IMG/VR virus record: IMGVR_UViG_3300035698_029402
Location: 1-34,234 of that record
DNA length: 34,234 nt
Strand: one strand, 5' to 3'
DNA from: a virus
In this document: positions 3,431 to 13,923 of the stretch, one piece after another
Layout: the number at the start of each line of letters is the position of its first letter
Position numbering within the stretch: position 1 is the first letter of the stretch
Notes under the pieces: model-generated
What the model was told of the DNA's origin: nothing
Databases searched by the model: none
What the model saw: the letters and a program-made list of their open reading frames with translations, nothing else
Position numbers and translations under genes: made by a program

Positions 3431-3764
3431 TATTCCGCATCGATATTCTCCACCTCAAGTGTGTATAGAGCGCGCGCTGAGCGATATTTCCGTGGATCAA
3501 TTCTTGGAATTTCTACCGCGAATAATACCTGGCAGGCATGAGCAAATTTCAAAGGTTTTAAAAGATGATGAATTAAGGCCGATTTTCCGGCAAAAGGCAG
3601 CCGAGGCTTTTTGTATGGGGGATAAAGAGTGTTTTCTAAATAACAACCCATTGTACCCGCTCTGTTATGCAAAACCAAAAGGGGCCCCTGGTTGTTATCC
3701 TGAAAAACATCACGTCTATTACACATTTGATGACCTCGCAGATCTTGCTGAAGAAATTATTTAA
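3378..3764 (+). CDS. Unknown early protein, start uncertain (up to 128 aa)
   Basis: Clearly coding from about 3450 on, with segments such as VDQFLEFLPRIIPGRHEQIS and the cysteine-containing end CYAKPKGAPGCYPEKHHVYY. Four of its six cysteines cluster in the second half, which hints at a metal site. The coordinate given uses a TTG at 3378 with a badly spaced GGAG; GTG at 3459 is an alternative (102 aa). The well-initiated 34-aa ORF at 3326 overlaps it in another frame, so the gene may have lost its original start through a frameshift. No family recognised. Confidence 0.6.
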   Translation: MSKDIKNRTRSSVSRDHNIPHRYSPPQVCIERALSDISVDQFLEFLPRIIPGRHEQISKVLKDDELRPIFRQKAAEAFCMGDKECFLNNNPLYPLCYAKPKGAPGCYPEKHHVYYTFDDLADLAEEII

Positions 3765-3837: not shown

Positions 3838-4431
3838 ATGCAATTAATACCGGCGGATCAGAACAGATTAGAGGAGCTTGAAACGGTTATCCATAAGAAT
3901 TTTTTGGCATTTTACGAAGTGGGCCGGGCACTCAAGGAGATCCGGACCTGCAAGCTTTACCGGGGCACGCATGAAACGTTTGAACTGTACTGCCGGGAGT
4001 TGTGGGACGTGCAAAAACGGCATGCGAATAAACTTATCGCGGCATCAAAGGTGATAGATATTTTATCCGCCGAAAATGGGGCCAATTGGCCCCAAAACGA
4101 AGCCCAAACCCGCCCCTTAACCCGCCTTGAAACACCGGAACAGCAGATAGAAGCATGGAAAAGAGCGGTTCAGACGGCGCCGAACGGCAGGATCACGGCC
4201 AAGCATGTGAATGATGTTGTAAGGGAGGCGCAGGGTGATGCGGCCCTGAGACGGTCACAGAGTATGAAAGATGCCGTGAACAGCTCGCCGGCCGTGCCGC
4301 AGGCTTTTAAGGACTGTTATTTTTCACTGCTGGATATTATTCGAGACGCCCGTGAAACTAATTTTAAGGGGGCGGACAAGGAAAAGATGCTCCAGTACCT
4401 GGACGGGCTTCGCAGATTCATTGAGGATTGA
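3838..4431 (+). CDS. ParB-HTH-like DNA-binding protein (197 aa)
   Basis: The N-terminal part reads NFLAFYEVGRALKEIRTCKL, then HETFELYCRELWDVQKRHAN and KLIAASKVIDIL. This FYEVGxALxEIR...CxExWxxxxxHANxLI pattern occurs in phage and plasmid proteins with a ParB/KorB-like helix-turn-helix. A Pro/Gln/Arg linker (about residues 82-97) leads to a second conserved block, LETPEQQIEAWKRAVQTAPN, then ITAKHVNDVV. Start ATG at 3838 has AAAGGGG upstream; an in-frame ORF extends further left but without support. The stop overlaps the spacer before the transposase by a few bases. It may assist transposition or segregation. A perfect 16-bp palindrome lies in the linker-coding DNA. Confidence 0.7.
   Translation: MQLIPADQNRLEELETVIHKNFLAFYEVGRALKEIRTCKLYRGTHETFELYCRELWDVQKRHANKLIAASKVIDILSAENGANWPQNEAQTRPLTRLETPEQQIEAWKRAVQTAPNGRITAKHVNDVVREAQGDAALRRSQSMKDAVNSSPAVPQAFKDCYFSLLDIIRDARETNFKGADKEKMLQYLDGLRRFIED
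4078..4093. repeat. Perfect 16-bp palindrome GGGGCCAATTGGCCCC
   Basis: Perfect inverted repeat with no spacer, flanked by A-rich bases on both sides, inside the DNA for the linker of a DNA-binding protein gene. Could be a binding site for that protein or a strong hairpin in the mRNA. Confidence 0.5.
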
Positions 4432-4433
4432 CA

Positions 4434-6578
4434 ATGGATGCACTTACAGTAAAAAAAATAGCACAACTTGATGGCCACAGTATTCAAGCAGTGCACAAGC
4501 GGGCGACAAAAGAGGATTGGATATACTACCCGGGTGCAAACAACACAAAAAAATTTATTTTATCATCCCTGCCCAGGGATATCCGTCTTTTATATAATAA
4601 GGTAAATATCGAATCGGCCCCGCCCCTTCCCATTCCCGCAGATAGAGCCATATCACCAGCCATTCCGCGTCAAACCCAGCGCCTGGCGGGGCCGATCACC
4701 GTCAGCCGGCAGTCACAACAAAAAGCCCTGGCCAAAGCGGACCTGCTCAGACTTTACATGCAGGCCCTTAAAAAAGCGGCCTGGGGTAAAAAGAACCCGG
4801 CCCGTGAGACGTTTGTGCTGGCCTATAATTCCGGGATGGCCTGGCCCCGGCTATATGAGGTGCTGGGGCCGGTCTCCTGGAAAACCATCGAGGGGTGGAA
4901 GCGCCAGGTGAAAAGAAGCGCCGATCCCATGCGCCTGGCGGATCGCCGGGGGACTCACAGGGCAGGGGAATCCCTGATCAGCGATGTCCAGGAAAAAATT
5001 TTACTGCGGTGCCTGCTGCATCCCAACCGGCCCCTGATCGCGGAAGCGATCCGCATGGCCAAGGCGGTGATGGACCAAAAGGGAATTGAAAACGGGTACA
5101 GCGAGTCCACATACCGGCGATGGGTTCATGACTGGAAAACCCACAATATTCATATCTGGACTTTTTCCCGCAAGGGGGCAAAGGCGTGGAATGATGAATG
5201 CGCCTATTATATAGAGCGGGATTACAACCTGATCAACGTGGGCGACATCCTGGTTGCGGACGGGCACGTGCTCAATTTCGAGATAATCAACCCCTGGACC
5301 GGTAAGCCCAAGAGAATGATGATGATACTCTGGTATGATATGAAATCTAATTTCCCTCTGGGCTGGGAGATTTTGCCCACGGAAAACACCCAGGGGATTG
5401 CCAGTGCCCTGCGCCGGGCCATCCTGCGCCTGGGTAAGATTCCGAAGGTGGCATACCTGGACAACGGCAAGGCCTTTTCCAGCAAGTTTTTCAACGGGGC
5501 CAACCTGGAGGAGGCCGGTTTTGCCGGTCTGTTCGAGCGCCTGGGTATGAAGACCATTTTCGCGTGGCCCTATCACGGGCAGTCCAAAACCATCGAGCGG
5601 TTTTTCGGGACATTTGCCGAACTGGAGCGCTGGTGCCCCACCTACACGGGCACGTCCATCGAGAAAAAACCGCCTCGGATGATGCGCGGGGAGCGAATTC
5701 ACAGGAAGGTATATGAGAAAATGACCGGGGGCGGGTGCCTGACACTTGAGCAGGCCCATATGGCCGTGGCAGCCTGGTTTGATCAGTATGTCGCCCGCAC
5801 CCAGAAAGGGCACCTGGCAGGGGCCGCGCCGGCGGAGCTTTTCCTTGAGGGCAGAGGGCCGGGCGTGGATCCGGCAACACTGCAATACCTGATGATGTCG
5901 GCCGAGATTAAACAGATCAGCCGCCAGGGTATCCATTTTCCCGGGCGTAATTATTATAATCCGCTGCTGCATGGCCGGCGTCACGGGGCAATCGTCAGGT
6001 ATGATCTCCAGGATGACAGTGAAATCCTGGTATTTGAAAAATCCGGCGAATATATCTGCTCGGCGCAAAAAGTGGAAAAGGTGCACCCGGCAGCCCGAGT
6101 GCTCGGGACCGACGCTGACGTCGAGAAGCTGAAAAGCCATGTGGAACTGAAAAAGCGGCTGGAAAAGGCGGCAAGCGTGTCAGCCCGGCAGTTCATGCTC
6201 GACGAGGTCCTGCCGGAACATCAGGCCAACCTGGCCAGGGCAGGCGTGACACAACTGGGGCCCCAGACCCCCATGATCGAAAAACAAGCGGTCGAAAAGA
6301 CCGACGATGCCATCCTCCTGGAACTCGCCGAGCGCGAGACCTGGCAGGAGGATGAGACGGCCCTGTTTTTCAAGGCCCTGGCCGACCTGCCCGAGATGGA
6401 ACGATATGAAAAACTGATTGAAGCTGAAATTCGCGGGTGGCTGGTGCCGCAGCAGTGGCAGACGTTTATGAGTTATTACGAACAGACCACCGAATTTGAG
6501 AAGTATGTTGATTATTTTGATGATGCCCGGACCCGGGCGACTATTCTTTATCAGGTGGAAGCAAAAAAAAGTGAATAG
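4434..6578 (+). CDS. Mu-type DDE transposase A (714 aa)
   Basis: Carries out strand transfer at the phage ends for integration and replication. Residues ~1-60 form the Mu-type DNA-binding HTH (LTVKKIAQLDGHSIQAVHKR, then WIYYPG). The catalytic core is an RNase-H fold with D276 (VADGH), D343 (YLDNGKAF) and E388 (SKTIERFFGTF). The 67-residue D-D gap equals that of MuA (D269-D336), while the D-E gap is shorter (45 against 56). A beta-barrel region follows at about 480-565, and the C-terminal helical part probably contacts the MuB partner. Length is near MuA's 663. A TTG two codons earlier is in frame, but GAGG at 4423-4426 points to ATG 4434. The last codons (-KKSE) come from an intergenic repeat. 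Confidence 0.95.
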   Translation: MDALTVKKIAQLDGHSIQAVHKRATKEDWIYYPGANNTKKFILSSLPRDIRLLYNKVNIESAPPLPIPADRAISPAIPRQTQRLAGPITVSRQSQQKALAKADLLRLYMQALKKAAWGKKNPARETFVLAYNSGMAWPRLYEVLGPVSWKTIEGWKRQVKRSADPMRLADRRGTHRAGESLISDVQEKILLRCLLHPNRPLIAEAIRMAKAVMDQKGIENGYSESTYRRWVHDWKTHNIHIWTFSRKGAKAWNDECAYYIERDYNLINVGDILVADGHVLNFEIINPWTGKPKRMMMILWYDMKSNFPLGWEILPTENTQGIASALRRAILRLGKIPKVAYLDNGKAFSSKFFNGANLEEAGFAGLFERLGMKTIFAWPYHGQSKTIERFFGTFAELERWCPTYTGTSIEKKPPRMMRGERIHRKVYEKMTGGGCLTLEQAHMAVAAWFDQYVARTQKGHLAGAAPAELFLEGRGPGVDPATLQYLMMSAEIKQISRQGIHFPGRNYYNPLLHGRRHGAIVRYDLQDDSEILVFEKSGEYICSAQKVEKVHPAARVLGTDADVEKLKSHVELKKRLEKAASVSARQFMLDEVLPEHQANLARAGVTQLGPQTPMIEKQAVEKTDDAILLELAERETWQEDETALFFKALADLPEMERYEKLIEAEIRGWLVPQQWQTFMSYYEQTTEFEKYVDYFDDARTRATILYQVEAKKSE

Positions 6579-6698
6579 TGAGAAGTGAGAAGTGAAAAGC
6601 AAAAACAGTGAAAAGTGAATAGTGAAAAGTGAGAAGTGGTGGAGTCGCTTCGGGCTTCGCCTGCGGCTACGCCCGATAAATCGCTCCATCTATTTTAT
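6571..6698 (+). repeat. Intergenic repeat A, long form (GTGAATAGTGAAAAGTG family)
   Basis: Starts within the last codons of the transposase. Tandem GTGAATAGTG/AAAAGTG units (6571-6636) are followed by a hairpin. Outer arms TGGAG...CTCCA and an inner CGGGC...GCCCG enclose an extra ~29-base insert that the short forms lack. The downstream part (CTCCATCT, then T-rich, then AAAAAAGGAGG) continues into the ribosome site of the MuB gene. Nearly identical to copy C at 9540-9643. Confidence 0.85.
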
Positions 6699-6714
6699 AA
6701 AAAAGGAGGATGTA

Positions 6715-7440
6715 ATGACGATTGAGATTAATCCCGTGTTTATTCAGACCAGAAATGTGCGGAATTTTTCCGTGATGATGAAGGCCCTGGACCTGGGGGC
6801 CGGTGAGGGACGCCTGGCCCTGGTGTGGGGCCGTGCCGGAAGAGGGAAGACGCGCACCAGCCAGTGGTATCAGGCCAATAACGGCGGCGTGTACATGCGC
6901 ATGGCCACGGTGTGGCGCACGTCCGAGCTCTATTTTCTCCAGTCCCTGGCCAGGGAGTTGGGGATTGCCGCTCCGGCCGGGCGCAAAGGGCCGGTATTTG
7001 CCCAGGTTATGGACGCCTTGATCGATGAGCCTTGCGCCGTCTTTCTGGATGAGATCGAAAAACTGTCCAAATTTTTCCTGGACGTGATCCGGGACCTGTC
7101 TGACCTGTCGGCCTGCCCCATTATTTTGATCGGGGAAGCTGAGCTTTACAGCTACATGCGCCAGAACCGGCGGGTGTGGAGCCGGACCTACCAGCAGATG
7201 GAGTTTGCGCCCATTGATGCTGCGGACATCGTGATCTATGCCAGGGACCTGACGGGCGGAGCAATCAGGCTGCCTGTGTCCGCGGCAAGGATCCTGCACG
7301 GATCATCCGACGGAGACTTCCGGATCGTTCGCCGGGACGTGATCCAGGTGATACATTTTGCCAACGGCCGGGGAACGGTTGAGATTACCGATGACCTGGT
7401 GAAAACGGCAATCAAGACCGGCCTGAGCGGGAGGCGATAA
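6715..7440 (+). CDS. MuB-like AAA+ ATPase (241 aa)
   Basis: Transposition partner of the transposase: in Mu, ATP-bound MuB coats target DNA, delivers it to MuA and protects phage DNA from self-insertion. Walker A is G39-T46 (GRAGRGKT) and Walker B is AVFLDEIEK with D112/E113. A sensor-1-like segment (CPIILIGEAEL) follows. Length is shorter than MuB (312) and lacks an obvious N-terminal HTH, as in other Mu-like phages whose B protein is of the AAA_22 type. GGAGG lies 6 bases before ATG 6715; an in-frame extension to 6622 would translate the repeat and is rejected. The stop overlaps the next ATG (TAATG). Confidence 0.93.
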   Translation: MTIEINPVFIQTRNVRNFSVMMKALDLGAGEGRLALVWGRAGRGKTRTSQWYQANNGGVYMRMATVWRTSELYFLQSLARELGIAAPAGRKGPVFAQVMDALIDEPCAVFLDEIEKLSKFFLDVIRDLSDLSACPIILIGEAELYSYMRQNRRVWSRTYQQMEFAPIDAADIVIYARDLTGGAIRLPVSAARILHGSSDGDFRIVRRDVIQVIHFANGRGTVEITDDLVKTAIKTGLSGRR

Positions 7441-8024
7441 TGGCTCACGGAGATCATGCCCGCCAGGTGCGGGAAAGTCTGCAACGACACGGCGTCCGCG
7501 GAGCTGAAGTTCAAACCCGGCAGGTGGCCGTAGATCTGGACCTGGTGTCCCCTGCGGAAAAAAAGCTCCTGCATCGCACTCTTTACGATTTTGCCAAACG
7601 CGGTGAAATTCAGCGGGTGCGTCAGGGCGTGTATATTTATATCGGAAAATCAAAATCGAAAACAGATAAGCGCGGGGCCATATGGCGGGTGTTGCGGGCG
7701 CGCAGGCATACAACCACCACGGTGTCGGACCTGCAGGCCATGTGCGGGGTGAGCGAAGGATATGCAAAGGAATACCTGCAGATGCTCTGCTCAAATTCCG
7801 TACTGCGGCGGTTTTCAGGCGGGCATCGGGCCGATGGCGGCGAGGTGGGCGTCCGGTACCGGCTGATTAAGGATCCGGGCCCGGGTGTTCCGGCGGACGA
7901 AAAGAAGGCTGCCCGGCTGCGGAAGATACGGGGGGCGCGGAAAAAGGCGGCTTTGGCGGCGCTGGCTGAGGCCGAGGCCGCTATTTTGAAGGTGCGGGAA
8001 CTTATTAAAAACAGTGAAAAGTGA
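7440..8024 (+). CDS. Winged-helix DNA-binding protein (194 aa)
   Basis: Start overlaps the MuB stop (TAATG), so the two are translationally coupled. The N-terminal part (residues ~35-70, AEKKLLHRTLYDFAKRGEIQ, then RVRQGVYIYIG) and the middle (~80-145, RHTTTTVSDLQAMCGVSEGY, AKEYLQMLCSNSVLRR) look like two winged-helix units, each ending in a beta-wing. The C-terminus is a long basic, Ala-rich helix. It probably acts with the transposition proteins; the exact role is unknown. The last residues (KNSEK) derive from the intergenic repeat. Confidence 0.75.
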   Translation: MAHGDHARQVRESLQRHGVRGAEVQTRQVAVDLDLVSPAEKKLLHRTLYDFAKRGEIQRVRQGVYIYIGKSKSKTDKRGAIWRVLRARRHTTTTVSDLQAMCGVSEGYAKEYLQMLCSNSVLRRFSGGHRADGGEVGVRYRLIKDPGPGVPADEKKAARLRKIRGARKKAALAALAEAEAAILKVRELIKNSEK

Positions 8025-8063
8025 ATAGTGAGAAGTGGTGGAATCGCTTCGCTCTATCTAATT
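8011..8063 (+). repeat. Intergenic repeat B, short form
   Basis: ACAGTGAAAAGTGAATAGTG, then GTGGAATCGCTTCGCTCTATCT. Same family as A but with the short hairpin and no ribosome site at its end. Overlaps the final codons of the winged-helix gene and leads to the HNH gene. Confidence 0.8.
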
Positions 8064-8083
8064 AATGTTGGGCATATAAATTG

Positions 8084-8851
8084 ATGAGAAGAAAATATAC
8101 AGCCAAACAACTGGCATTTTTAAAAGAAGGCTACCTGACTATGACGGTTGGGCACTTAATGATCGCCTTCAATGCCGAATTCGGTACGAACAAACGCGAA
8201 ACGGCGATCGGGTCAGCCCTAAGAAATCATAAAATTAGATGCGGTCGGCGGCGAAGATACACCCGGGAGCAGGCTGCTTTTATTGCCAACAGCTATGCCG
8301 GCCGGAGTATTGCCGACATGACCGCTGTTTTTAACAGCCAATTCGGCAAGAAGGAGACGAAACGGCAGATAATCTCTTTTGTGAAGAATAGGGGCATCGT
8401 ATCGGGCCGCAGCGGGCGTTTTGAGAAGGGCCACAGGCCTCACAACTACGGGAAAAAAGGCTGGGCATCTGGCGGGCGATCGGTCAAGACCCGGTTTAAA
8501 CCAGGACGTCGACCTCATACGTGGCTACCTGTCGGTTCTGAGCGCGTTACCAAAGCCGGATTCCTTCAAAAAAAAGTCTCAGATACCGGCTATGGCTCGC
8601 GTGACTGGCAAAGCGTTCACAGCTGGTTGTGGGTGCAAAATTACGGGCCGATCCCTGAGGGGCACATTGTCGTGTTCCGGGACGGAGACAGAAAAAATAA
8701 TAAAATAGAAAATCTGGAGATGATTTCGAGAGGGGAAAACATGCGCAGGAACTCTATCCATAATTTACCCGAAGAACTGGTCGACGTTTGCCGAATCCGT
8801 GGCGTTTTGAACCGCCACATCAACAAAAGGATGGGAAAAAATGAAAAATAA
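8084..8851 (+). CDS. HNH endonuclease with two tandem HTH-like repeats (255 aa)
   Basis: The C-terminal half is an HNH_3-type nuclease domain: VHSWLWVQNYGPIPEGHIVV with H179 and H194, then FRDGDRKNNKIENLEMISR with the metal-site Asn. The N-terminal half holds two ~52-residue repeats (residues 4-54 and 58-109), both matching [KR]YTxxQxAFxxxxY...FNxxFG...Nx(K/R)IxxGR; they are probably helix-turn-helix DNA-binding units. The build is that of a free-standing homing-type endonuclease inserted among the early genes. No clear ribosome site is seen; a TTG one codon earlier is possible. The end overlaps the next start by 11 bases. Confidence 0.88.
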   Translation: MRRKYTAKQLAFLKEGYLTMTVGHLMIAFNAEFGTNKRETAIGSALRNHKIRCGRRRRYTREQAAFIANSYAGRSIADMTAVFNSQFGKKETKRQIISFVKNRGIVSGRSGRFEKGHRPHNYGKKGWASGGRSVKTRFKPGRRPHTWLPVGSERVTKAGFLQKKVSDTGYGSRDWQSVHSWLWVQNYGPIPEGHIVVFRDGDRKNNKIENLEMISRGENMRRNSIHNLPEELVDVCRIRGVLNRHINKRMGKNEK

Positions 8852-9092
8852 AATCGAAGATCTCAGGAACCATTTGTTTGTCACCATCGAACAGCTTCTG
8901 GATGCAGATGACCCGATGGACATTCCCCGCGCAAAGGCGGTCAGCCATGCAGCCCAGGCGATTATCAATTCGGCCAAGGTCGAGGTTGACTTTTTGAAAG
9001 TCACCGGCGGTGTTGAGGGCAGCGGTTTTATACCCTATGAACCCCGAAAGCCCCTGCCGCCGGGTATGCCTAAAAACCTGAAGGCCGTATAG
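8841..9092 (+). CDS. Conserved small phage protein (83 aa)
   Basis: Helical N-terminal part (MKNKIEDLRNHLFVTIEQLL, then MDIPRAKAVSHAAQAIINSA) and a proline-rich end (EPRKPLPPGMPKNL). Mu-like phages often have a protein of this size and helical pattern (with the RAxAxxxxAxxIIxxAKVE motif) just before gp16; I know no function for it. It starts inside the end of the HNH gene with AAAGGATGGG upstream, so it is coupled to it. Confidence 0.8.
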   Translation: MKNKIEDLRNHLFVTIEQLLDADDPMDIPRAKAVSHAAQAIINSAKVEVDFLKVTGGVEGSGFIPYEPRKPLPPGMPKNLKAV

Positions 9093-9116
9093 CTGGAAAG
9101 GAACCGGTGGGGAAAT

Positions 9117-9554
9117 ATGAAAAAAACGATTAAAATAGACCGCAGGAAAATCGCCCTGGTGCATGTGGCAAAGCGCCAGGTGGGGATGACGGATGATGAG
9201 TACCGGGCATTGCTGGGGCAATATGGGGCGGCGTCGTCAAAGGACCTGACCGTGGCGCGGTTTAAACTGGTGATGAAGCGCTTTGAGCACCTGGGGTTTA
9301 AATCGCGATCGTTTAAACGCCGGGCGCCGGCGGTTGATTCGCGGGGGCGGCTGCTGAAAAAGATCGAGGCCCAGCTTGCGGCCCTGGGATTGACGGCGGG
9401 GTATGCCGATGCGATCGCGCGTAATATTTTTAAAGGTAAATATCCAAATCTGGGGACGTATCGATGGCTCAAGGACCCGGTGGAGCTGCGGAAGGTTGTG
9501 GCCGCGCTGACGTATTATCAGCGGCGGCAAGCAAAAAAAGTGAAAAGTGAATAG
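9117..9554 (+). CDS. gemA: GemA/gp16 family regulatory protein (145 aa)
   Basis: Matches the Mu gp16/GemA family (DUF1018): KIALVHVAKRQVGMTDDEYR, then ALLGQYGAASSKDLT, VMKRFEHLGF, and near the C-terminus YADAIARNIFKGK with W-K-D motifs. In Mu, GemA affects host gene expression and DNA supercoiling. Length is typical (Mu ~180). GGTGGGG precedes the ATG. The C-terminal KKVKSE is encoded by the intergenic repeat and is outside the family's usual sequence. Confidence 0.88.
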   Translation: MKKTIKIDRRKIALVHVAKRQVGMTDDEYRALLGQYGAASSKDLTVARFKLVMKRFEHLGFKSRSFKRRAPAVDSRGRLLKKIEAQLAALGLTAGYADAIARNIFKGKYPNLGTYRWLKDPVELRKVVAALTYYQRRQAKKVKSE

Positions 9555-9643
9555 TGAATAGTGAAAAGTTGTGGAGTCGCTTCAGGCTTCACCTGCGGCT
9601 ACGCCCGACAAATCGCTCCATCTGTTTGATAAAAAAAGGAGGG
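9540..9643 (+). repeat. Intergenic repeat C, long form
   Basis: Same long form as repeat A: GTGAAAAGTGAATAGTG units, then TCGCTTC, the ~29-base insert and CGCTCCATCT, ending in AAAAAAAGGAGGG, which serves as ribosome site for the next small ORF. Differs from A at only a few positions over about 70 bases. Confidence 0.85.
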
Positions 9644-9648
9644 TAAAA

Positions 9649-9729
9649 ATGGAGGAAAAATTTTTCTGGGCGTTAATGGGGATTAATGTCGCGGCGCTGA
9701 TAATCGTGGTGACAATGATGTTTTTTTAA
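9649..9729 (+). CDS. Micro membrane protein (26 aa)
   Basis: MEEKFFWALMGINVAALIIV, then VTMMFF and a stop. A single hydrophobic segment spans residues ~7-26 after an acidic/Lys start. GGAGGG lies 5 bases before the ATG, which makes translation likely. Family not recognised; it could be a small holin-like or regulatory peptide. Confidence 0.65.
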   Translation: MEEKFFWALMGINVAALIIVVTMMFF

Positions 9730-9754
9730 GGCGGAATAAAAAAAGGAGGGCATG

Positions 9755-9955
9755 ATGAGACTGGGAAACGCGAGAATCTGTATTGATTGTGACGAAGTGT
9801 ATGACATGGCGGCGCATAAGCAATGCCCGCGGTGCGGCAGCCGGCAGACCGCGTCCCTGCGGGGATGGCTGAGGCCTTTGAAAAAGATACAGGCCGTTGT
9901 GCCTGTAAATCGGCAGAAGGCCGAGGCTGTGCCCGCTCCGGCCCATGCGGGGTAA
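9755..9955 (+). CDS. Small zinc-ribbon protein (66 aa)
   Basis: Cysteine pairs CIDC (residues 9-12) and CPRC (24-27) make a treble-clef-like zinc ribbon in the first half; the rest is basic and Pro/Ala-rich. Two ATGs in tandem (9752, 9755) are possible; GGAGGG is better spaced for the second. Unknown role; one of several Cys-rich small proteins in this middle region. Confidence 0.7.
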   Translation: MRLGNARICIDCDEVYDMAAHKQCPRCGSRQTASLRGWLRPLKKIQAVVPVNRQKAEAVPAPAHAG

Positions 9956-10000
9956 ATACCTGGTACAGCATATCAGCAAGCATTTTGAGGAGAACTGGCT

Positions 10001-10267
10001 ATGCAGGCGCAGAATATGACGGATGAAGAAATTGTCGCAGAAGAGATAGAATGTAATTATTGTGGATATAAATGTTTTTGCGGGCAGCAGAAGCAGATGA
10101 AGTTCCCCTGCTGCTGGGGCTGCTGGGGCCGATTGCCACTGCACTATAAGCATAAAATTTATGGCAAACAGGGTGATGATCTCATCGCCGGTGTTCTGGC
10201 AATAAAAAAATATCTGGAGGAAAATGAAAATGGCAAAATTGACGGCGCAGGAACTGCAGGTGCGTAA
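10001..10267 (+). CDS. Small Cys-rich protein (88 aa)
   Basis: Seven cysteines lie between residues 18 and 41 (ECNYCGYKCFCG, then FPCCWGCWG), suggesting one or two metal sites. A helical acidic part follows (DDLIAGVLAIKKYLEENENG). Start has GAGGAG 8 bases upstream. Its last 38 bases overlap the next gene. No family recognised. Confidence 0.72.
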   Translation: MQAQNMTDEEIVAEEIECNYCGYKCFCGQQKQMKFPCCWGCWGRLPLHYKHKIYGKQGDDLIAGVLAIKKYLEENENGKIDGAGTAGA

Positions 10268-10799
10268 AAATAAACTGTTAAGGGTGATGACCGGGCATAT
10301 CGGGGCCGGGTCCAAAATCGGAATGGGCGAACTGTATGAGGTTGTGTTTAATGATGGGTATCAAAATCGGATCAACGATACCAAGCTTTTGCGGCGGCTG
10401 ATTACGGAACTTCGTTTTGACGGCGTGCCCATTATCAGCAGCTCCGCCAGGGCGGACGGTGGATACTGGCTTGCTGCTGCCGGGAGTGAGCTGGAGAGCT
10501 ATTGTGAAAATCTGAAAAAGCATGCGTTGAAAAAGCTGGCCCAGGTGGCGAATTTAAAGAAGACGGCCCTGCCGGAATTGGTGGGTCAGATTCGGCTGGA
10601 ACTTGAGAATTCAATAGTGAGAAGTGAAATGAAATGTTTTATTTGTGGATCTAATGAATCTCAATGGCGCATGACATACGAAAAACACCTTTGCAAAGAA
10701 TGTTGGGAAACAATAGAACGATTGAAAATATTCCGGGAAAAGATTTCAGAGGAAAGAAAACATGGAAGCAAAAGAACAGGCAGAGCAGCTCCTCTGTGA
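10230..10799 (+). CDS. Winged-helix protein fused to a zinc finger (189 aa)
   Basis: Residues ~1-125 look like a phage winged-helix protein (AQELQVRKNKLLRVMTGHIG, RRLITELRFDGVPIISS, GYWLAAAGSELESY). Residues 128-133 (SIVRSE) are encoded by a fragment of the intergenic repeat. From Met134 there is a separate zinc-finger domain (MKCFICGSNESQW...HLCKECWETI, CxxC...CxxC). The Met at 10629-10631 may be the original start of a separate gene. GGAGG at about 10216 suits ATG 10230 better than ATG 10224. The end overlaps the Gam start by 38 bases. Confidence 0.78.
   Translation: MAKLTAQELQVRKNKLLRVMTGHIGAGSKIGMGELYEVVFNDGYQNRINDTKLLRRLITELRFDGVPIISSSARADGGYWLAAAGSELESYCENLKKHALKKLAQVANLKKTALPELVGQIRLELENSIVRSEMKCFICGSNESQWRMTYEKHLCKECWETIERLKIFREKISEERKHGSKRTGRAAPL
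10613..10628 (+). repeat. Intergenic-repeat fragment F, inside a gene
   Basis: AATAGTGAGAAGTGAA is shared with repeat A (6574-). Here it is read through in frame as part of the winged-helix/zinc-finger gene, without the hairpin part. Confidence 0.65.
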
Positions 10800-11229
10800 A
10801 GCGGCGGAAATAAAGGGCCGGATTGAGGCTGTTGAGGCCGAGGCAGCGCTGATGATTGCGGCGATTGCCGAGATATATACCGTCAAACTGGGAGTAGATA
10901 AGGCCCGGATGAAAACGATTGAAAAAGAAATAAAGAAGTTATCGAGGAAGAACAAAAAACATTTTTTCAAGAGTGATTCAGACCGGCTGCAGCTTGCCTC
11001 CGGAGCGCTGCTGTATAATGTGACAAAACGGGTGAAACGAATAAGAGGAGCGCTCGCAAAGATTGAGGCTGCCGGGATTAAGAATGTGATCAAGATCGTC
11101 AAGTCGGTTAACTGGGACGCGGTGGAGAAGCTGGAAGATGAGGATCTTGAGAAGATCGGGACGTGTCGGGTTAAAAAGGATGTTTTTGAGTATGAGGTGG
11201 GGAAAGGGAAAAAAGTGAAAAGTGAATAG
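10762..11229 (+). CDS. gam: Gam-like DNA-end protection protein (155 aa)
   Basis: Mu Gam family: a long N-terminal helix (QLLCEAAEIKGRIEAVEAEA), then the beta part with DRLQLASGALLYNVTKRVKR and the ending FEYEVGKGKK. Mu Gam binds double-strand DNA ends as a Ku-like homodimer and shields linear phage DNA from exonucleases. Length is close to Mu Gam (174). GAGGA precedes the start. The C-terminal KVKSE comes from the repeat that follows. Bacteriophage Gam is usually just downstream of the transposition genes, as here. Confidence 0.88.
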   Translation: MEAKEQAEQLLCEAAEIKGRIEAVEAEAALMIAAIAEIYTVKLGVDKARMKTIEKEIKKLSRKNKKHFFKSDSDRLQLASGALLYNVTKRVKRIRGALAKIEAAGIKNVIKIVKSVNWDAVEKLEDEDLEKIGTCRVKKDVFEYEVGKGKKVKSE

Positions 11230-11268
11230 TGAAAAGTTGTGGAATCGCTTCGCTCCATCTATTTGATA
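11215..11268 (+). repeat. Intergenic repeat D, short form
   Basis: GTGAAAAGTGAATAGTG, then GTGGAATCGCTTCGCTCCATCT. Short hairpin: TGGA/TCCA outer pairs with CG/CG around a short loop. Overlaps the last codons of gam and runs up to the AAAGGAG ribosome site of the next gene. Confidence 0.8.
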
Positions 11269-11286
11269 ATCCTTGAAAGGAGAACC

Positions 11287-11526
11287 ATGTTAACAACAGC
11301 AGCCAGAGAGCAAGACGTTAGCCTTACGAGGTTCTTTATGATCGACATAGATGGGAAAAAATATCTTGAAGTGCCGGTTGAAAAGTTTGCTTTCGGCAAT
11401 GCCTGTAACTATTGTGCTTTTAAAGGAACTGATTGCTACAACAGAAACGATTTTGATTGTCACGGTGATTCAAGGACAGACGGTCGATCTATTGTTTTTA
11501 AAGAGGCTAAAACAGCGGATGGGTGA
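11287..11526 (+). CDS. Cys-rich small protein (79 aa)
   Basis: The C-terminal part holds four cysteines, CNYCAFKGTDC and later DC (about residues 43-61), after a beta-like start (TRFFMIDIDGKKYLEVPVEK). This is a small metal-binding protein of a type common in phages; function unknown. The start at 11287 has AAAGGAG; an in-frame start at 11239 lies inside the repeat and is rejected. Confidence 0.72.
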   Translation: MLTTAAREQDVSLTRFFMIDIDGKKYLEVPVEKFAFGNACNYCAFKGTDCYNRNDFDCHGDSRTDGRSIVFKEAKTADG

Positions 11527-11800: not shown

Positions 11801-11974
11801 ATGTTGCGGTTTATAATCTGTAATTTGTTTCACAGGCACATGTGGCTCGGCGTACGCGAAATGGAGCGGATTGGATTGACCGCGAAAAAAGCAATCCATT
11901 GTCAAATTTGTGATGGGCCTTTGGCTGAACTGATTATCGACGAACTGAAAAAGGATGCAACAAGATGCGACTGA
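11801..11974 (+). CDS. Small protein with CxxC (57 aa)
   Basis: MLRFIICNLFHRHMWLGVRE, then MERIGLTAKKAIHCQICDGP and an acidic/basic helix. One CQIC pair is preceded by His and Cys residues, perhaps a half zinc finger. The end overlaps the next start by 10 bases. GGGGAAGG lies 5-8 bases before the start. Family not recognised. Confidence 0.65.
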   Translation: MLRFIICNLFHRHMWLGVREMERIGLTAKKAIHCQICDGPLAELIIDELKKDATRCD

Positions 11975-12480
11975 TATGCCCGAGCTGCGGGGCCGTGCAC
12001 AGCGCGGAGGCGTGGCGCAATGACGATACGGCCAGGGCCTGCATGGTGCAGGCGGTAAAATTGCCGGGGCCGGTGTCGGCTCAATTGTGGGGATATCTGG
12101 CCCTGTTTCGGCCGGGCACGAAGAGGGGCTTGCAGTGGAGCCGGGTGCAGCGGCTTATGGCTGACCTGGCCGACCAGGTGGGGACCGGGCACATTCAGCA
12201 GGCTCGCAAGGTTGCCCGGCCTGCATCACCCGCGATCTGGGCGCAGGCAATGGAAAAGATGATCGATCAGCCGCCGGGCAAGCTGCCGTTGAAAAACCAC
12301 AATTACCTGCGGGCTATTGTGTATGATCTGGCTGATGAGGCTGACCGGAAAACTGAGACGGCTCGCAATCAAACGGAAAGAACCGGGCAGTTTCGCGGGG
12401 AATCGACTTCCCGGGATGCTTCGCAAATCAGCGTGGAGGAAATGCGGGCGATGGTGGCAAAGAAAAGAAAAAATAAATGA
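11965..12480 (+). CDS. Zinc-ribbon phage protein (171 aa)
   Basis: Starts with MRLICPSCGAVHSAEAW (a CPSC knuckle), followed by CM and a helical domain with LWGYLALFRPGTKRGLQWSR, then LPLKNHNYLRAIVYDLAD. Proteins of this pattern (zinc knuckle, 'LFRPxxxRxLxW', 'PLKxHxYLxxI') are common in Mu-like phages and prophages of Proteobacteria, in the early/middle region; function is unknown, with a role in replication or regulation possible. Overlaps the genes on both sides by a few bases. Confidence 0.78.
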   Translation: MRLICPSCGAVHSAEAWRNDDTARACMVQAVKLPGPVSAQLWGYLALFRPGTKRGLQWSRVQRLMADLADQVGTGHIQQARKVARPASPAIWAQAMEKMIDQPPGKLPLKNHNYLRAIVYDLADEADRKTETARNQTERTGQFRGESTSRDASQISVEEMRAMVAKKRKNK

Positions 12481-13266: not shown

Positions 13267-13605
13267 ATGACACCCGGCGAACTTTCCACAATAGCCGGAT
13301 TCATGAGCATCCTCGGCAGCGTGCGGGGATGGCCGTTCGGCATCATTGTATTTATCGTTGTCATCGGGCCGTGGCTTTCGGCGTTTTTGCTGCTGTACCT
13401 GCAAAGCAGACGCTTCGAGAATGTGGTGAAAATGTATGAAAGCAATGTCTCACTGGTCGAGGATTATTCAAAGCTGGCAGAGGATCTGCATGATGTGGTG
13501 ATTATGAGCACGCAGACAATGACGCGGCTCGTGGACAGCATCAATACAAATCAATACTGCCCGGCAATACGGCTTAAAAAACAGGCTGAAGGAGTTGCGG
13601 CATGA
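13267..13605 (+). CDS. Membrane protein with helical tail (112 aa)
   Basis: One long hydrophobic segment (GIIVFIVVIGPWLSAFLLLY, residues ~25-44) after a short start and a periplasm- or cytoplasm-facing helical tail (RFENVVKMYESNVSLVEDYS). The build fits an inner-membrane spanin or a phage tail-helper; I see no lipoprotein partner in another frame. Located between the holin and a small helical protein, with 2 bp spacing on the left and an ATGA overlap on the right. Confidence 0.7.
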   Translation: MTPGELSTIAGFMSILGSVRGWPFGIIVFIVVIGPWLSAFLLLYLQSRRFENVVKMYESNVSLVEDYSKLAEDLHDVVIMSTQTMTRLVDSINTNQYCPAIRLKKQAEGVAA

Positions 13606-13844
13606 GCGAAACATTGAAGTTCAAGGGGCGGCTCGCGGAAAAGGAATACCAGCTCAAGAGGCTGGCATTGAATATCCGGGGCCTGGTCAGGGCAATCCGC
13701 GACAATCTTGATCCGCTGGGTGAAATCGAAGATATCAAGGCTGATATCGCGGCGGCCCAGGCGGTTGAACTGGCGGGGATGATGATCCAGCACACTGAGA
13801 CACAGGCTGACATTGTGCTGATCAGGAAAGCCCTGGGGAGATAA
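13602..13844 (+). CDS. Small helical protein (80 aa)
   Basis: MSETLKFKGRLAEKEYQLKR, LALNIRGLVRAIRDNLDPLG, then IEDIKADIAAAQAVELAGMM. It is helical and coiled-coil-like and seems conserved at this site in Mu-like phages before the small terminase. Function unknown. Start overlaps the previous stop (ATGA). Confidence 0.75.
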   Translation: MSETLKFKGRLAEKEYQLKRLALNIRGLVRAIRDNLDPLGEIEDIKADIAAAQAVELAGMMIQHTETQADIVLIRKALGR

Positions 13845-13845
13845 T

Positions 13846-13900
13846 AATGAATGATGAATGCGGAATGATGAATGATGAATATGGCTTCGCTTCGCTCAAT
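13846..13900 (+). repeat. Intergenic repeat E (divergent form)
   Basis: Tandem GAATGATGAAT units, then CTTCGCTTCGCTC, with AATGAT...ATCATT as outer arms of a hairpin. It shares the CGCTTCGCTC core with repeats B and D but has a different tandem unit. Sits between the 80-aa protein gene and the small terminase, ending before AACAGGAGAG. Confidence 0.65.
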
Positions 13901-13923
13901 CATTATTTAAAACAGGAGAGATG

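Follow-up and report, generated by a model that had tools for sequence, protein, structure and literature searches.

The similar C-terminal tails carried by several unrelated proteins of one phage are, judging from the sequence, derived from repeat DNA, and we consider it likely that the four repeats concerned (copies A to D) stem from a dispersed palindromic element, mainly bacterial-chromosomal and common to the phages of these bacteria, of which each retains one arm in a partly worn state. The window that we analyzed is the entire 34,234-nt stretch of virus record IMGVR_UViG_3300035698_029402. It has a Mu-like early region with genes for a transposase (4428–6578), a MuB-like ATPase, an HNH nuclease, a winged-helix protein (7440–8024), GemA (9117–9554), and Gam (10762–11229). 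A search of viral sequences with the Gam and MuB-like proteins as queries returned no relatives.

Repeat copies and protein tails in the window

A preliminary description of this DNA had reported copies A to D at gene ends, and all four were found there, on the (+) strand and with a common layout of (GTGAAWA)n, then GTKGTGG, then a hairpin. When copy A was used to search the window, copy C was recovered with an E-value of 1e-41, copy B with 3e-12, and copy D with 1e-9. The array pattern AGTGA[AG][AT]AGTGA[AG][AT] was counted 14 times on the (+) strand and never on the (−) strand, against a shuffle expectation of 0.015 per strand. Specifically, the array of copy A (10 heptamers; 6567–6638) provides the transposase gene with its stop and its final codons (KKSE) and constitutes a 37-base tandem duplication (6559–6636) in which the last transposase codons are included; GTGG and a long hairpin with a 31-base insert follow (6639–6691; folding z = −3.4). 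The arrays of copies B (8013–8037), C (9536–9569), and D (11211–11237) give the ends of the winged-helix protein (...KNSEK), GemA (...KKVKSE), and Gam (...KKVKSE), respectively, and are followed by GTGG plus a short hairpin in B (8038–8059) and D (11239–11260) and a long one in C (9571–9623). The insert that distinguishes A and C from B and D had been put at ~29 bases; it is present, but its length is 31 bases (hairpin parts of 53 versus 22 nt). Folded in isolation, the hairpins of B and D show little stability (z = −1.5 and −0.1, respectively), so we make no terminator claim for them. Two automatically predicted ORFs (6622–7440 and 11239–11526) begin with a GTG within the repeat; their true starts are likely the ATG codons at 6715 and 11288, respectively, 3′ of ribosome sites.

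The resemblance among the tails of these four unrelated proteins is as the preliminary description had it, and homologs lacking the repeat do end earlier. All 12 transposase homologs stop at or soon after one domain boundary, with varied and unrelated last residues, and homologs of GemA, Gam, and the winged-helix protein likewise stop at a domain boundary without such tails. Two of the transposase homologs adjoin other repeats at the same spot, i.e., GAACATC units in L010 and GCAAAGGC-like units in L016. Bacterial chromosomal genes also end in arrays (...RRKVKIE, ...RLIKNE, ...EKLVKS, and ...GIVNSE). In a separate observation, the L013 transposase contains a heptamer array in frame within a variable linker (3596–3631), and the L016 transposase has a linker sequence, DGSQLTV.GSG, similar to that of L013.

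A fifth array site, missed in the preliminary description, is the remnant ATAGTGAGAAGTG at 10614–10626 on the (+) strand, located at the native end of ORF 10224–10799, whose frame passes through it without a stop. Five homologs of this ORF end in ...LELE plus about 2 to 11 residues, near the remnant, and past it the frame runs into a short cysteine-rich sequence starting MKCFICGS. The ORF looks like two genes, a conserved first part and a cysteine-rich frame, that would have become fused through a worn array. Copy E (13843–13905, (+) strand) had been listed as a more distant relative overlapping the last codons of the gene before it. Such a copy is present, but it has its own unit, AATGATG (array at 13843–13880), with a GGCTTCGCTTCGCTC hairpin, and it starts directly at the native stop of gene 13602–13844 and adds no tail: that gene ends in ...RKALGR, and its L016 homolog ends in ...KKALGR.

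Dispersal of the complete element

The preliminary description had proposed searching host genomes for the repeat. Using a degenerate pattern that covers the array, linker, and hairpin, we found the repeat dispersed in several bacterial genomes, with matches in Desulfobacteraceae 4572_123, two Desulfoluna, another Desulfobacteraceae metagenome-assembled genome (MAG), several Oscillospiraceae MAGs, and one planctomycete. Copies per genome, with no more than one mismatch, numbered 47, 47, 29, 17, 12, and 7 (the highest count, up to 47, being in Oscillospiraceae), compared with 0 to 2 for the pattern read backwards; the Desulfoluna count was close to this background. Host-genome copies lie mostly between genes. 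Three related phages (L009, L156, and L157) also carry the repeat, and copy D is 91% identical over 45 nt to a copy in L009. An Acidobacteriota match (L029) was set aside as chance, as it appears to be coding sequence and has no array. The exact long-hairpin pattern had no match in viral contigs, a constructed full-element consensus had none in plasmid and annotated phage records, and a text search of the literature for the unit sequence retrieved only unrelated papers.

These matches bear on whether the repeat was simply multiplied by duplication or gene conversion inside this phage, which the preliminary description had named as a finding that would count against a mobile element. Copies A and C align at 92% identity across 108 nt, a stretch that includes flanking bases and reaches into the ribosome site of the next gene, and these two may represent one in-phage duplication. 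As an account of the family as a whole, however, duplication confined to this phage is scarcely credible: the element also resides in a number of host genomes and in three further phages, and the long and short hairpin forms both occur in host chromosomes, the long form of A and C being found in Desulfobacteraceae 4572_123 at 87% identity.

The complete element, as seen in Oscillospiraceae, is an inverted doublet of ~110 bases, in the order array, hairpin, spacer, hairpin, and inverted array. Its left side consists of about four degenerate GTGAATA-like heptamers, GTTGTGG, the hairpin TGTCGCTTCGCGACA, and then an AT-rich spacer, and its right side consists of a second, different hairpin and the inverted array. 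Among the host copies, 36 of 42 were two-armed by an automatic rule accepting at least two units in the second arm, and all window copies are single arms. In the right-hand hairpin, three pairs have changed on both sides without loss of pairing, the scan pattern itself having fixed two other pairs. In L079, L087, and L094 (genome G004), the element seems to exist in a larger form as well, its two hairpins being separated by an additional stem resembling TCGTGACGA...TCGTCACGA.

This architecture also speaks to the idea that the arrays are plain tandem repeats grown by slippage and that the hairpin is coincidental. The arrays are indeed degenerate and vary in unit number, and other phages have arrays of other units, all of which slippage would produce. 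We nevertheless regard this explanation as highly improbable, given that, across several phyla, the array is followed by the same linker GTTGTGG and hairpin, that array, linker, and hairpin co-occur in most copies, and that the element is completed by a second, inverted arm.

Comparison of related phages at the same locus gave a view of the repeat being present or absent. At the end of window gene 11965–12480, no array is found in the window (...KKRKNK) or in the L013 homolog (...KKRRR), while the L009 homolog ends in the array of our copies (...KKRKVRSEK) and the L157 homolog in a different one (...KKRLKVEG). The comparison of empty sites suggested in the preliminary description could thus be made at one orthologous gene end, but between proteins only about 42–58% identical rather than in a clean strain pair. 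At one locus shared by L156 and L157, the L157 element is full, with both hairpins, and the L156 element is partial, most of the core of one arm being absent, a contrast that points to a way in which single arms can form. Across related phages, array calls numbered 18 in L010 (hepta- and octamers of several unit types, some overlapping), 9 in L009, and 4 in L015. Other units seen in these phages are GAACATC, AAGGCTG, TCAAGGGG, AGGTAGA, GAATGAT, and TAGCTAA; most of these arrays lie at the end or start of a gene, and some form inverted pairs.

We also weighed the explanation that the arrays and hairpins are selected sites of post-transcriptional regulation in RNA, as for the TAACTGA repeats of Beggiatoaceae, for which the available part of one report provides a precedent (PMC4679880). 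The elements lie between co-oriented genes, and the survival of hairpin pairing through two-sided changes is what such a role would predict. However, presence varies at a single gene end among related phages, the element matched no family in an Rfam search, and the mirrored units of the two arrays match one another no better than after shuffling (16 of 58; P = 0.86), which gives no support to a maintained RNA stem between the arrays. On balance, we find a regulatory RNA role unlikely.

Position at gene ends

The preliminary description had taken the repeat for a small mobile element targeted to stop-codon regions, one that may also bring a ribosome site for the next gene. At first sight, the window agrees with this: four of the four GTGA-type copies overlap a stop, and ribosome sites lie shortly 3′ of the hairpins. 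The overlap, however, is automatic. Because 7 is not a multiple of 3 and the unit holds a stop on one strand, a forward array closes all three frames, while its reverse complement contains no stops; a forward array touching a gene must therefore lie at its end, and targeting is not required. In the relatives L010, L015, and L013, open-frame arrays built from other units sit inside coding linkers, and a one-armed L009 copy is in the opposite orientation upstream of a gene start. The import of a ribosome site fares no better, as the sequence AAAAAAGGAGGG that follows A and C also precedes repeat-free starts in the window (9737 and 20275), and complete host elements have the AT-rich spacer at that place and no AAAAAAGGAGGG-type site. 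The ribosome site 3′ of the hairpins is generic to the phage. Specific stop-codon targeting with import of a ribosome site is therefore very unlikely. The broader proposal of a small mobile element fits in that the repeat is dispersed and shared by unrelated gene ends; its movement is something that we infer from this dispersal and from the differences in presence among related phages.

Relation to known repeats and proposed origin

The dispersed repeat resembles REPs and REPINs, i.e., GTAG- or CGTC-tagged palindromes (PMC3733652 and PMC3116915), in being a short, extragenic, multicopy palindrome that forms inverted pairs and lies near the 3′ ends of upstream genes, and GTAG REPs have been reported to give a stop codon to flanking ORFs (PMC3733652). 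As in REPINs, extragenic palindromes are present in many copies (7 to 47, compared with 0 to 2 for the control) and form inverted doublets in the host genomes (36 of 42), though the window copies have a single arm each. In contrast to REPINs, the palindrome is flanked by heptamer arrays and the linker, with the consensus GTTGTGG, replaces the GTAG/CGTC tag, only two right arms reading GTAG; in the MAGs, we found no REP-associated tyrosine transposase flanked by, or linked to, the repeat. With its terminal inverted repeats, absence of coding capacity, and length under about 400 bp, the element also has the features of a MITE. Bacterial MITEs, as far as the accessible text on Coxiella QMITE (PMC5896051) and enterobacterial RU-1 (PMC2759123) goes, are likewise small and non-autonomous, overlap gene ends, and give proteins C-terminal residues. 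Those texts describe no heptamer arrays; in our element, the tails comprise only a few residues because every frame is closed by the array.

Further candidates for comparison are the tandem heptamers of cyanobacteria and small dispersed repeats, the latter being cited in PMC3116915. As for tandem arrays, the paired hepta- and octanucleotide "global regulator binding sites" of Geobacter metallireducens (PMC2700814) are multicopy and, like our element, have tandem units of 7 to 8 bases arranged in pairs across the two strands; the units there are GTTGCTYN and MTYCTGA, and the portion of that paper available to us describes no twin hairpin and presents a regulatory role as a hypothesis only. The TAACTGA repeats of Beggiatoaceae are also intergenic heptamer arrays with stops in the three forward frames, some of which overlap the upstream stop. 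The explanation of gene-end position by stops in all frames was already given for them (PMC4679880, in part). Their unit differs from ours, and neither an inverted hairpin doublet nor phages are mentioned in the accessible portion of that report.

We propose that the repeat is probably a REPIN/MITE-like member of a host pool, with an enzyme of the cell copying it in trans. On landing close to the 3′ end of a gene, it would swap the last few unconstrained codons for K/S/E-rich ones and terminate the protein with its domain untouched; insertions at other places in genes would mostly be lost. In a crowded phage operon, the second arm would then be lost, so that an array and a hairpin remain, followed by the next gene's own ribosome site. 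Transposition as the route, the role of selection, and the identity of the hosts are presumptive parts of this scheme. A REP-type transposase as the mover is unsupported: Y1 transposases (PF01797) were not found in two of the genomes with the most copies, an absence that carries little weight in MAGs, and Y1 loci examined in other genomes had no array. No target-site duplication was seen by eye at 17 complete copies, in which the array boundary is degenerate.

It is conceivable, though doubtful, that these elements form a class of mobile repeat not named before, with twin hairpins set in inverted heptamer arrays and a mover that is not of the REP type. Such a class would be shared among Desulfobacterota, Clostridia, and Planctomycetes, carried between hosts by Mu-like phages, and tolerated at gene ends in either orientation through its all-frame stops, giving proteins new tails as it goes. 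The element joins two described kinds of repeat, REPIN-like palindromes and tandem heptamer arrays, and it crosses phyla and occurs in phages. The named carrier genomes make testable the question of what moves it without a linked REP-type transposase. For the phage itself, the repeat accounts for a common tail on unrelated proteins and advises caution against reading such tails as functional motifs.
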